Of a DNA stretch of 64,000 bases, positions 43,013 through 57,328 are shown piece by piece. The DNA lies in assembly GCF_033406955.1 (NCBI RefSeq), contig NZ_CP137734.1, forward strand, positions 3,286,001 through 3,350,000. Reading direction: 5' to 3'. Numbering within the stretch: position 1 is the first letter of the stretch; each line of letters begins with the position of its first letter. This DNA is from Streptomyces violaceoruber. GTDB lineage: Bacteria; Actinomycetota; Actinomycetes; Streptomycetales; Streptomycetaceae. The position numbers and the translations under genes were made by a program. The notes under the pieces are model-generated. The model made no database searches. It was given only the letters and a program-made list of their open reading frames with translations, and was not told where the DNA came from.

Positions 43013-43089
43013 GCGGGGCAGGCCGCTCGACCCCCTCCGGCGAACCTCGCCGGGCCGCGCGGCCTCCGCCGAGTCCGGCCTGCCCGCAC

Positions 43090-43228
43090 GGCACCGGAGC
43101 CGGGGACCCAACCGAGAACTTTGGGGTGAATCGGCCTCACCGCCCTCGACGCGAGGACGGTCCGCCGTAGGGCAAACCTTCCGCGCCACACCGCCCGAAC
43201 CCGACAGCTAACCCGGTAGGCGGAGCAC
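43090..43228 (+). ncRNA. ydaO-type cyclic-di-AMP riboswitch
   Basis: The conserved blocks of the ydaO/yuaA class appear in order: GCCGGGGACCCA (43099-43110), TTTGGGGTGAATCGGC (43120-43135), GTAGGGCAAACC (about 43167-43178), CCGAACCCGACAGCTAACCC and GGTAGGCGG (43194-43222). It ends about 20 nt before the start codon of the NlpC/P60 hydrolase. In Streptomyces this class is known to govern cell-wall hydrolase genes. The bound ligand is expected to lower expression. The start region just beyond can fold over its own ribosome-binding site. Confidence 0.93.
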
Positions 43229-43231
43229 TGG

Positions 43232-43247
43232 AAGGAGTCGCCTCCTT
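43232..43247 (+). promoter_or_regulatory. Hairpin covering the Shine-Dalgarno of the NlpC/P60 gene
   Basis: AAGGAG-TCGC-CTCCTT, a perfect 6-bp stem. Its left arm is the ribosome-binding site and its right arm reaches into the TTG start codon (43246). It could give the riboswitch a translational output. Confidence 0.6.
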
Positions 43248-54735: not shown

Positions 54736-56316
54736 TCACTCCCACTCGATCGTGCCCGGGGGTTTCGAGGTCACGTCGAGGACGACGCGGTTGACGTCCG
54801 TGACCTCGTTGGTGATCCGGGTCGAGATCTTGGAGAGCACCTCGTACGGCAGCCGGGACCAGTCGGCCGTCATGGCGTCCTCGGACGAGACCGGCCGCAG
54901 GACGATCGGGTGGCCGTAGGTGCGGCCGTCGCCCTGGACGCCGACGGAGCGGACGTCCGCGAGCAGCACCACCGGGCACTGCCAGATGTCGCGGTCGAGG
55001 CCGGCCGCGGTCAGCTCCTCGCGGGCGATGGCGTCGGCCTCGCGCAGCAGGTCGAGCCGCTCCTTGGTGACCTCGCCGACGATCCGGATGCCGAGGCCCG
55101 GGCCCGGGAACGGCTGGCGCTGGACGATCTCGTCCGGCAGGCCCAGCTCCTGGCCGACCATCCGGACCTCGTCCTTGAACAGCTGGCGCAGCGGCTCGAC
55201 CAGCTCGAACTCGATGTCGTCCGGGAGCCCGCCCACGTTGTGGTGGGACTTGATGTTGGCGGTGCCGGTGCCGCCGCCGGACTCGACGACGTCCGGGTAG
55301 AGCGTGCCCTGCACCAGGAAGGCGACCTCCGGGCCGTCCTCCCGCATGATCTCCAGCTGGGCCTGCTCGAAGACCCGGATGAACTCGCGGCCGATGATCT
55401 TCCGCTTCTGCTCGGGGTCGGACACCCCGGCCAGCGCGCCCAGGAACCGCTCACTGGCGTCCACGACCTTCAGCTGCACGCCGGTCGCGGCGACGAAGTC
55501 CTTCTCGACCTGCTCGGTCTCGCCCTTGCGCATCAGGCCGTGGTCGACGTAGACGCAGGTCAGCTGGGAGCCGATGGCCTTCTGGACGAGCGCGGCGGCC
55601 ACCGCGGAGTCCACGCCGCCGGACAGCCCGCAGATGGCGCGCCTGTCGCCGACCTGCGCGCGGATGGCCGCGACCTGCTCCTCGATGACGTTGCCCGTGG
55701 TCCAGTCGGGGCTCAGGCCCGCGCCCCGGTACAGGAAGTGCTCCAGCACCTGCTGGCCGTGCGTGGAGTGCATGACCTCGGGGTGGTACTGGACGCCGTA
55801 GAGCTTCTTCTCGTCGTTCTCGAAGGCGGCGACCGGGACGACGTCCGTGGAGCCGGTGACGGTGAAGCCCTCGGGGGCGGCGGAGCAGGCGTCGCCGTGC
55901 GACATCCACACCGACTGCTCGGCCGGGGTGCCCTCGAAGAGGGTGGAGGACGGCTTGGAGACGGCCAGTTCGGTGCGGCCGTACTCGCGGGCGCCGGAGT
56001 TGTCGACGGTGCCGCCGAGGGTCTGCGCCATCAGCTGGAAGCCGTAGCACATGCCGAAGACGGGGACGCCGGCCTCGAACAGGGAGCGGTCGAGGGTGGG
56101 GGCGCCCGCCTCGTACACCGACGAGGGGCCGCCGGAGAGGATGATGGCCGCCGGGTTCTTGGCGAGGATCTCCTCGACCGGCATGGAGCTCGGCACGATC
56201 TCGCTGTAGACCCGCGCCTCGCGGACACGACGGGCGATGAGCTGGGCGTACTGCGCGCCGAAGTCGACGACCAGGACGGTGTCGGGGGCGGCGGCAGCGG
56301 GAGTCGCTGATGACAC
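54736..56316 (-). CDS. guaA: GMP synthase (glutamine-hydrolysing)
   Basis: 526 aa, converts XMP to GMP with glutamine as nitrogen donor. The class I amidotransferase domain (residues about 12-205) has [33 protein letters not shown] with the nucleophilic Cys, and [14 protein letters not shown] with the His/Glu pair. The synthetase part has the PP-loop [75 protein letters not shown], and ends [10 protein letters not shown]. Length is normal. Confidence 0.97.
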
Positions 56317-56464
56317 GGGGTGCCTTCCGGCGGGTCGGGCGGGGGGCTTGTGCTCCCGATTCTACCGAGCGGGGAAGGTGGCCCGGCCCCGCAGTCGGCC
56401 TCGGCCGTCGACCCTGCCGGCGCCCCTCCCCGGTCCTGCCCCGAGTCTCACCATGCGAACCGGC

Positions 56465-56493
56465 TTGGACACCGACCGTCGCGGGGGCATACT
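56465..56493 (+). promoter_or_regulatory. Promoter of the chorismate mutase leader
   Basis: TTGGAC (56465-56470), exactly 17 nt, CATACT (56488-56493). The start point predicted 6-7 nt on falls on the A of the leader-peptide ATG (56500), so the transcript should be leaderless. Confidence 0.75.
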
Positions 56494-56499
56494 GGGCGC

Positions 56500-56571
56500 A
56501 TGCTCAAGCACCAGGCGTTCCTGTTTACCTATGGCAACCGGCCCACCGGCTGCCATGGTCGTGCTGCTTGA
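56500..56571 (+). CDS. Phe/Tyr-containing leader peptide of the chorismate mutase attenuator
   Basis: A 23-aa open frame, MLKHQAFLFTYGNRPTGCHG then RAA and TGA. Residues 7-11 are Phe-Leu-Phe-Thr-Tyr, coded TTC CTG TTT ACC TAT. A stalled ribosome there would sit just before the GGCAACCGG/CCGGCTGCC hairpin (about 56533-56554). The stop region TGCTTGAGCA (56565-56574) is an exact complement of the first codons (56501-56510). It precedes a terminator and the gene for an enzyme leading to Phe and Tyr, which is the classical arrangement for ribosome-mediated attenuation. No ribosome-binding site is present, consistent with a leaderless start. Confidence 0.72.
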   Translation: MLKHQAFLFTYGNRPTGCHGRAA

Positions 56572-56590
56572 GCAACTGACAAGCGACTTC

Positions 56591-56627
56591 CCAGGCGCCC
56601 CGGGCCGACAAGGTCCGGGGCGCCTGG
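56591..56627 (+). terminator. Attenuator terminator before chorismate mutase gene
   Basis: A perfect 13-bp stem CCAGGCGCCCCGG with 56615-56627, an 11-nt loop, then CGTTTGC. It lies between the leader peptide and the chorismate mutase gene, 57 nt before the latter. Confidence 0.82.
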
Positions 56628-56684
56628 CGTTTGCGGACCGTGCCGGTCCGGGGTGCCGCCACCCTTCGGCGAGGAGCCACCGAC

Positions 56685-56972
56685 ATGACCGTCACCGCAG
56701 CAGACAAGACCGGCGCCCGCACCCCCGAGGCCGCCGACGTGATCACCGGCGCCCGGGAGCGGATCGACGCCCTGGACGACCGGATCATCGGGCTGATCCA
56801 GGAACGGATGGCCGTCTCCGCGGTCATCCAGGATGCGCGGATCACCTCCGGCGGCCGCCGCGTGAACCTCTCCCGCGAGATGGAGGTGCTGGACCACTAC
56901 CGGGAGGCGCTGGGCAAGCCGGGCACGGCGCTGGCGATGACGATGCTGGAGCTGTGCCGCGGGCAGGTGTGA
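56685..56972 (+). CDS. Chorismate mutase (AroQ class)
   Basis: 95 aa from ATG 56685 (MTVTAADKTGARTPEAADVI), with GAGGAG 8 nt upstream. The all-helical AroQ pattern is seen in ARERIDALDDRIIGLIQERM, AVSAVIQDARITSGGRRVNL, SREMEVLDHYREALGKPGTA and MTMLELCRGQV, with the expected Arg, Lys/Arg and Glu/Gln positions. It rearranges chorismate to prephenate, the branch point to Phe and Tyr. It is transcribed alone from an attenuated promoter; that regulation supports a biosynthetic rather than secreted role, as does the lack of a signal peptide. Confidence 0.92.
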   Translation: MTVTAADKTGARTPEAADVITGARERIDALDDRIIGLIQERMAVSAVIQDARITSGGRRVNLSREMEVLDHYREALGKPGTALAMTMLELCRGQV

Positions 56973-57328
56973 GAGCCGCGGCGCGGCCGGGGGGTCGCAT
57001 CTGAGTTCGGACTCCTTCTCACCCGTACGGCGCGTGACCGGCACGCGAGCGGCTTCGTTGGTCCCGGTGTCCGCGTCAGCCAGGGGCGGGCCCGAAAGAA
57101 CCACGCGTGGCTCGCTGGAGCGATGAGGCGTACGGATCGTGCCGTGCGTCGTGGGACCTCGCTCCAGGAAGTGACCGGACGGCAGGGGACAGCAGCCCGG
57201 TCACCCATGAGAACGGCCGGCTCCGGGGACGCCCGGGGCCGGCCGACGGAACGGGTAGTGACGCAGGACACATAAGGATTCTGTGAATACGGAGACAACC
57301 CTTCACAGGTTCCAGTGATCAAACGGGC
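56973..57328. other. Gap between chorismate mutase and LAXTG-protein genes
   Basis: A 356-bp gap with a GC hairpin (57215-57244, listed) and a dyad CTGTGAA...TTCACAG (57281-57308) before the next gene. AAGGAT (57275-57280) could be part of a -10. No gene is recognised. Confidence 0.4.
57215..57244 (+). terminator. GC hairpin downstream of chorismate mutase gene
   Basis: GGCCGGCTCCGGG (57215-57227) pairs with 57232-57244 with one G-T pair and a 4-nt loop; probably ends chorismate mutase transcription. Confidence 0.65.

Follow-up and report, generated by a model that had tools for sequence, protein, structure and literature searches.

A conserved candidate Phe/Tyr leader-peptide attenuator, predicted to be leaderless, upstream of chorismate mutase in Streptomyces

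Introduction

Chorismate mutase commits chorismate to phenylalanine and tyrosine rather than to tryptophan and other products. A leader-dependent control of this activity has been described for the pheL-pheA pair of E. coli, where the Phe codons of the leader act by transcription attenuation, albeit in a distant phylum and on a bifunctional chorismate mutase-prephenate dehydratase (PMC11802643). The nearest precedent, likened here by its published description, is the aroR leader preceding the aroF operon of Corynebacterium glutamicum, an actinobacterial leader that encodes a Phe-Tyr-Phe peptide, acts via ribosome stalling and serves an aromatic operon. Unlike the locus reported here, it controls DAHP synthase, and it is described as responding to Phe but not to Tyr (Neshat et al. 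2014, as presented in PMC11802643).

Within the genus Streptomyces, the attenuators described for S. lividans TK24 (trpL1, trpL2, leuL1, leuL2, ilvL, thrL, alaL and metL) likewise encode short leader peptides, seven of the eight being described as leaderless, and several include hairpins and uridine-rich stretches. None of them is for Phe/Tyr or located at chorismate mutase, and the word "chorismate" is absent from the main text of that paper (PMC8079986). Classical attenuators combining a leader peptide, an antiterminator and a GC-rich terminator were found at trp, trpS and leuS in a survey of Actinobacteria which, in contrast, describes no conserved RNA structures upstream of Phe/Tyr operons (Seliverstov et al. 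2005, PMC1262725). In mycobacteria, leaderless polycysteine uORFs that precede operonic genes likewise sense an amino acid, but it is cysteine, the genes are different and the process is called translation attenuation (Canestrari et al. 2020, as described in PMC13236596). A study of 3'-ends in S. clavuligerus reported 96 novel premature transcription units; "chorismate" is absent from its main text, and its tables may contain the chorismate mutase leader (PMC8269248). The main text of a start-site paper on S. coelicolor contains neither "attenuat" nor "chorismate" (PMC4895711).

The portions of the literature covered here hold no report of a Phe/Tyr leader at an actinobacterial chorismate mutase, which is not proof of absence, and a comparison with Rfam 15 (riboswitch, T-box, Phe leader and other families) gave no family at gathering score at the leader analysed below; hence we consider the element new and its kind of mechanism already known. 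An earlier sequence-only reading of this DNA, which first proposed the attenuator, knew of no leaderless Phe/Tyr case at chorismate mutase in Streptomyces. No such case was found in the literature covered, but leaderless leader peptides as such were already established in this genus (PMC8079986). What appears to be new, judging from sequence comparison, is a broadly conserved Phe/Tyr leader at chorismate mutase; leaderless Streptomyces attenuators and the Corynebacterium Phe-Tyr-Phe leader are its known counterparts.

Results and Discussion

Promoter, leader frame and downstream gene

The window, i.e. the whole stretch of DNA that was analysed, comprises 64,000 nucleotides of Streptomyces violaceoruber (assembly GCF_033406955.1, contig NZ_CP137734.1, positions 3,286,001 to 3,350,000), in a genome that is a single contig of 8.63 Mb. 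The relevant features, in window coordinates, are:

54736–56316, reverse strand: GMP synthase gene, divergent, upstream of the leader
56465–56470, forward strand: −35 element TTGGAC, read directly
56488–56493, forward strand: −10 element CATACT, present in 122 of 143 relatives
56500–56571, forward strand: leader-peptide ORF, predicted leaderless, 23 codons plus TGA (sequence and relatives)
56518–56532, forward strand: control codons TTC (Phe7), CTG, TTT (Phe9), ACC and TAT (Tyr11) (codon conservation)
56685–56972, forward strand: chorismate mutase gene, 95 codons plus stop (PF01817, NF005894, PDB 2qbv)

Matches to PF01817, NF005894 (125.1 bits, above its cut-off of 73) and PDB 2qbv (E 3.2e-12) agree with the original assignment of the last gene as chorismate mutase. 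By these matches, its product is a short intracellular chorismate mutase like Rv0948c, a type known as AroQ-delta.

Direct reading confirmed the promoter originally proposed, with a 17-bp spacer between TTGGAC and CATACT and six bases from CATACT to the leader ATG at 56500. A consensus scan of 56000–57200 returned one promoter-like site (0.1 expected), which shares the −10 CATACT, but has TGGACA at 16 bp as its −35. Among the 143 same-genus leaders (see below), a −35 with at least four of six consensus bases at 16–18 bp is found in only 86; the −10 and the leader start codon are 6 or 7 nt apart in 141, and the start codon is ATG in 133 and GTG in 10. The position of the promoter thus predicts a transcript whose first base is the A of the ATG at 56500 or a neighbour of it, and it is this position that points to a leaderless transcript. 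Translation of the E. coli pheL leader uses a normal ribosome-binding site. In S. lividans, the −10 and the start site are on average 6.3 nt apart (PMC8079986).

Conservation of the leader and its control codons in Streptomyces

A chorismate mutase match was obtained in 148 of 150 same-genus genomes (all except G103 and G114), and 147 best-match loci were taken for leader counts, leaving out a weak match in G139. The automatic search recognized the leader in 143 of the 147; in two more (L018, L112) it was recognized by eye, and the other two (L028, L146) have only 161 and 31 nt of DNA at its place.

The ORF at 56500–56571 translates as MLKHQAFLFTYGNRPTGCHGRAA followed by the stop, which bears out the 23-residue peptide with Phe-Leu-Phe-Thr-Tyr of the original proposal; the pattern TTYNTNTTTACCTATGGC has a single occurrence in the whole genome. 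Attenuators of this class are expected to carry a short ORF enriched in codons for the end products of their pathway, and such an ORF is present in the 143 leaders and in other families as well. The Phe position preceding Thr-Tyr is TTT in 141 of the 143, and the Tyr codon is TAT in all but one, which has TAC. At the earlier Phe position, TTC occurs in 126 and TAC in 4; the L140 leader has lost its Phe codons. In 24 ORFs of the window, Phe is encoded by TTT at 4 of 293 positions and Tyr by TAT at 3 of 241 (about 1%). The use of the rare UUU and UAU probably sharpens the response, and their near-exclusive choice in these leaders offers a clean natural case for relating codon rarity to attenuator sensitivity.

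The tail of the peptide behaves differently. In six of the 143 leaders (L032, L076, L093, L101, L126, L127) a frame change after TYG removes the GCHGRAA tail, and the RNA arm is kept in the five of these that were inspected, which suggests that the tail is kept as RNA and the front as codons.

Structure of the leader RNA

The fold of 56499–56684 has an energy of −106.2 kcal/mol (z = −6.2), equalled by none of 200 shuffles. Its elements, and the alternative pairing AT, are:

56501–56510 with 56565–56574, forward strand: P0, 10 pairs (fold; 80.2% of cells paired in 94 leaders)
56531–56556, forward strand: P1 hairpin, arms 56531–56541 and 56546–56556, holding most of the Tyr codon (94.0% of cells paired)
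56565–56585, forward strand: AT, antiterminator core, 56565–56570 with 56580–56585 (covariation, arm swap, constrained folds)
56591–56627, forward strand: T, terminator-like hairpin, arms 56591–56606 and 56612–56627 (97.5% of cells paired)
56630–56632, forward strand: TTT after the terminator-like hairpin, read directly

P1 corresponds to the small hairpin that had been noticed after the leader codons. The second and third bases of TAT pair in it, so the conservation of TAT may be partly structural; no partner was seen for TTT. The terminator-like hairpin lies where a 13-bp terminator had been called, and it is conserved, but its stem has 16 pairs (one of them G-U); the gene starts ∼58 nt further downstream, and the hairpin is off the ribosome-binding site. 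A small extra hairpin (CGGACCG/CGGTCCG, 56634–56650) is seen between it and chorismate mutase. The parts of the architecture originally listed are in place; the antiterminator had been missed. Its 5' arm, made of the same bases as the 3' arm of P0, overlaps the leader stop codon and ends with the UG of that codon; its partner lies immediately upstream of the terminator.

Covariation across Streptomyces, one of the checks originally suggested, was assessed on 94 non-redundant leaders, drawn from the 122 of the 143 that passed a length filter and aligned with plain MAFFT. P1, AT (96.9% of cells paired) and T are together paired in 96.2% of cells and contain nine double-changed pairs compared to 2.9 in shuffles, a value that none of 500 shuffles reached, with the reservation that related sequences can inflate such tests. 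Four of the six AT pairs show double changes. P0 has 17 double-changed cells versus 5.3 in shuffles, and its number of pairs with double changes is not above that in shuffles (4 versus 3.4). The exact 10-bp match between the start and the end of the ORF, which the sequence-only reading had singled out, is indeed present; as the conserved heart of the leader it was rejected, given the 80.2% of cells paired and columns 5/81 being paired in 46 of 93. P0 is best read as a structure formed without a ribosome, which recurs more loosely than the exact match.

An alignment (A2) considered for AT pair counts in distant members was rejected because the AT 3' arm is misaligned in it, and it was replaced by an arm-swap test. 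A stop and a terminator were obtained in 193 of 204 loci; after setting aside 7 with TAG or TAA, the remaining 186 rows contained 98 distinct arm/segment pairs, all with TGA. The five-base AT arm has an exact downstream complement in 50 of the 98 distinct leaders as compared with 5.9% after swapping (61 of 98 versus 23.5% with G-U allowed). The prevailing arm GCUUG has its matching partner in 36 of 53 distinct leaders, and arms that replace it are accompanied by correspondingly changed partners: GUCUG in 8/9, GCCUG in 3/5, and GUGUG, GUUUG and GCAUG in 1/1 each. The exact complement is missing in the other 48 (37 with G-U allowed), and several arm classes have no partner (GCGTG 0/8, TCGTG 0/5, CACTG 0/8, AGCTG and TGCTG 0/2 each, TACTG, AACTG and GACTG 0/1 each); inspection by eye shows that in some of the partnerless classes GUCGC pairs with GCGAC close by, and that in others the stop is displaced.

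The 18 bases that follow GGGGCG at the terminator (139 of 143 loci) contain 31% T; the corresponding figures are 13% for the window and 17% for upstream DNA. The U-run itself is short (TTT here), and a rule requiring at least 5 T in 8 found no terminator in the 56000–57200 scan. Elsewhere in the window, at 43057–43239 on the forward strand, a c-di-AMP riboswitch (RF00379) scores 59.6 bits (gathering 38).

Both the Phe/Tyr codons and the terminator, on whose conservation in relatives the sequence-only reading had staked its proposal, are conserved, and the proposal stands in this respect; this conservation supports its fit to a ribosome-mediated attenuation by Phe/Tyr supply.

Folding with a ribosome in place

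For the constrained folds, a ribosome was taken to cover 13 nt, counted from the start of the codon in its A site. If it occupies Phe7, Phe9 or Tyr11 before the terminator 3' arm has been made, AT forms with a mean probability of 0.82–0.85, and pairing between the 3' arm of P1 and the 5' arm of the terminator prolongs it. When no ribosome is present, the probabilities are 0.96 for P0, 0.99 for P1 and 0 for AT; a ribosome with the stop codon in its A site covers the 5' arm of AT. The same tendency is seen across the 94 leaders, where the terminator 5' arm is paired upstream (P > 0.5) in 94/94 with the ribosome at Tyr, 94/94 at the second Phe and 49/94 without a ribosome. Since the AT core and the terminator do not overlap, their exclusion rests on the extended pairing. 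Moreover, the completed terminator has a probability of 1.00 in every ribosome state at equilibrium, and therefore read-through must be decided kinetically, during transcription, as it is in known attenuators.

Proposed mechanism and alternative explanations

The sequence features, their conservation and the covariation of P1, AT and T lead us to propose, with a probability of about 0.83, that a leaderless mRNA carries a ribosome-mediated transcription attenuator by which the expression of chorismate mutase is tied to how well Phe- and Tyr-tRNA are charged. The transcript would begin with the leader ATG or right beside it, and the ribosome would start at its 5' end. With ample Phe and Tyr, the ribosome would reach the UGA and cover the AT 5' arm, allowing the terminator hairpin to form and RNA polymerase to stop before the gene. 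With Phe or Tyr scarce, it would stall within UUC-CUG-UUU-ACC-UAU, blocking P0 and P1, and the RNA set free would form AT, extended by the P1 3' arm and the terminator 5' arm, resulting in read-through. In the absence of a ribosome, P0 and P1 would hide the AT arm, making termination the default. A caution comes from the S. coelicolor ilvB leader, where altering the candidate regulatory codons was without effect (cited in PMC1262725).

The short U-run and the negative strict terminator scan may also be taken to mean that the leader senses Phe/Tyr without an intrinsic terminator, with stalling altering the access of Rho, transcription-translation coupling or the translation of chorismate mutase; actinobacterial leaders without obvious terminators are in fact known (PMC1262725). 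We consider this version unlikely, as the GC-rich hairpin with its T-enriched 3' flank is conserved at a place off the ribosome-binding site, and the compensatory AT stem is just what a terminator/antiterminator pair needs. Far less probable is that translation is not the sensor and that the RNA or the peptide itself acts, be it as a riboswitch, a protein-binding element or a trans-acting small RNA or peptide. Such a role would account for nearly invariant nucleotide stretches (e.g. the TTTA.CTATGGC core), which are more than an attenuator needs, but it is at odds with the lack of any Rfam family at gathering score on the leader, with the persistence of the spacing from start codon to −10, of the frame and of the Phe/Tyr content where nucleotides change, and with the loss of the peptide tail in the frame-changed leaders.

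An ORF, a stop and a terminator alone would also give an arrangement of this kind, and regulation is what we infer here, so the locus might be viewed as a conserved non-regulatory leaderless small gene followed by an ordinary terminator. We give this least credence: the AT stem shows covariation and shares bases with the stop codon, the Phe/Tyr positions retain rare codons, and the downstream gene belongs to aromatic synthesis in both leader types (see below). The attenuator coupled to Phe/Tyr supply, if true, would be a conserved switch explaining the control of the Phe/Tyr branch in many actinomycetes, which are rich producers of aromatic-derived antibiotics, and it would offer a handle for their engineering.

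Leaders outside Streptomyces

The RNA model R1 gave matches at E ≤ 0.01 in 104 of 121 genomes of the family, and among the R1 matches listed, 14 of 17 genera have one below 1e-12. Weak class-wide R1 matches were rejected as homologues, many of those above about 1e-6 covering the terminator only (model positions ∼92–126); one candidate (L204) was dismissed as a tRNA-like sequence. We took 20 family loci covering 16 other Streptomycetaceae genera. Chorismate mutase is present in 19 of them, and a script read the leader in 17 of the 19; of the two remaining, L193 shows a leader by eye and L202 is ambiguous. Distant leaders keep Phe/Tyr in other letters, such as RFFFYG (L205), SAFFFYG (L216), RFFYGYR (L220) and SYFYYG (L183).

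Of 246 genomes searched across the class, 79 gave a chorismate mutase match, and 57 of these lie outside the genus. Of these 57 loci, 48 (families f4, f12, f14, f18, f21, f31, f35 and f37) were examined, one being too short (n = 47). A short ORF with Phe-Tyr or Tyr-Tyr within 350 nt upstream was found in 35 of the 47, as compared with 0/47 on the opposite strand and 2.0% in 50 mononucleotide shuffles of each, although, being related, loci from the same family do not count as independent. By family, the counts are 15/17 (f18), 11/19 (f4), 3/4 (f14), 2/2 (f31), 1/2 (f37) and 1/1 each for f12, f21 and f35. Among the 12 loci with no leader by this measure, one (L373) has its leader beyond the 350-nt limit, four (L389, L391, L408, L418) have visible aromatic codons that fall short of the pattern, and seven (L379, L382, L384, L385, L404, L406, L407) show no clear leader by eye.

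Leaders of the type RFFYGYR..VPV were observed in f4 (L377, L378, L380, L381, L399–L403, L405, L409). This family is probably mycobacterial because in L377 and L378 a gene for a UvrD/PcrA-type helicase lies beside chorismate mutase, as is the case for Rv0948c and Rv0949. The occurrence of Phe/Tyr leaders before chorismate mutase in other families makes an old shared mechanism testable.

A related leader upstream of DAHP synthase

A pattern common to both leader types was found at no fewer than 120 loci. Among the matches listed, 93 precede chorismate mutase, 20 precede DAHP synthase and 7 precede neither; of the latter, five have a leader of the chorismate mutase type but are truncated by the end of the locus within 225 nt, and two (L279, L335) look unrelated. 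Also among the matches listed, 66 of 80 records have the chorismate mutase leader type (65 Streptomyces, one Microtetraspora). The DAHP synthase leaders are of a Phe-Trp-Arg-Phe-Tyr type and read like MQRNFWRFYGYRPDTPVACKALR. Labels for 13 of the 20 loci include seven Nocardiopsis, two Streptomonospora, one Marinitenerispora, one Glycomyces and one actinomycete MAG. These 20 leaders belong to one lineage and thus count as one event.

Trp is found in all 20 DAHP synthase leaders among the matches listed, next to Phe, which fits an enzyme serving all three aromatic amino acids. It occurs in 11 of the 143 same-genus chorismate mutase leaders, five of them having it in or next to the Phe/Tyr cluster; in other Streptomycetaceae genera, Trp is often in the P1 loop, after the cluster. 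In the S. violaceoruber genome itself, inspection by eye of the DNA upstream of two genes for type II DAHP synthase (L346, L347) and one for prephenate dehydratase (L348) showed no aromatic leader.

Taken together, these distributions tip the balance slightly towards the view that an old aromatic attenuator has spread through the Actinomycetes onto committed steps, its codons matching the output of the gene: Phe/Tyr before chorismate mutase (in Streptomycetaceae, several other families and probably mycobacteria), Phe/Trp/Tyr before DAHP synthase (in Nocardiopsis and relatives). The ultra-rare UUU and UAU would have been kept in Streptomyces as sensitive stall points.

Two minor observations concern the DAHP synthase loci. 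The 20 loci of Nocardiopsis-type genomes in which a Phe/Trp/Tyr leader such as MQRNFWRFYGYRP... stands before DAHP synthase are L226, L228, L231, L234, L239, L240, L246, L267, L271, L284, L297, L301, L305 and 7 more. At L206, the same leader precedes an enzyme that combines PF00793 with a ferredoxin-like domain (first 198 residues checked).
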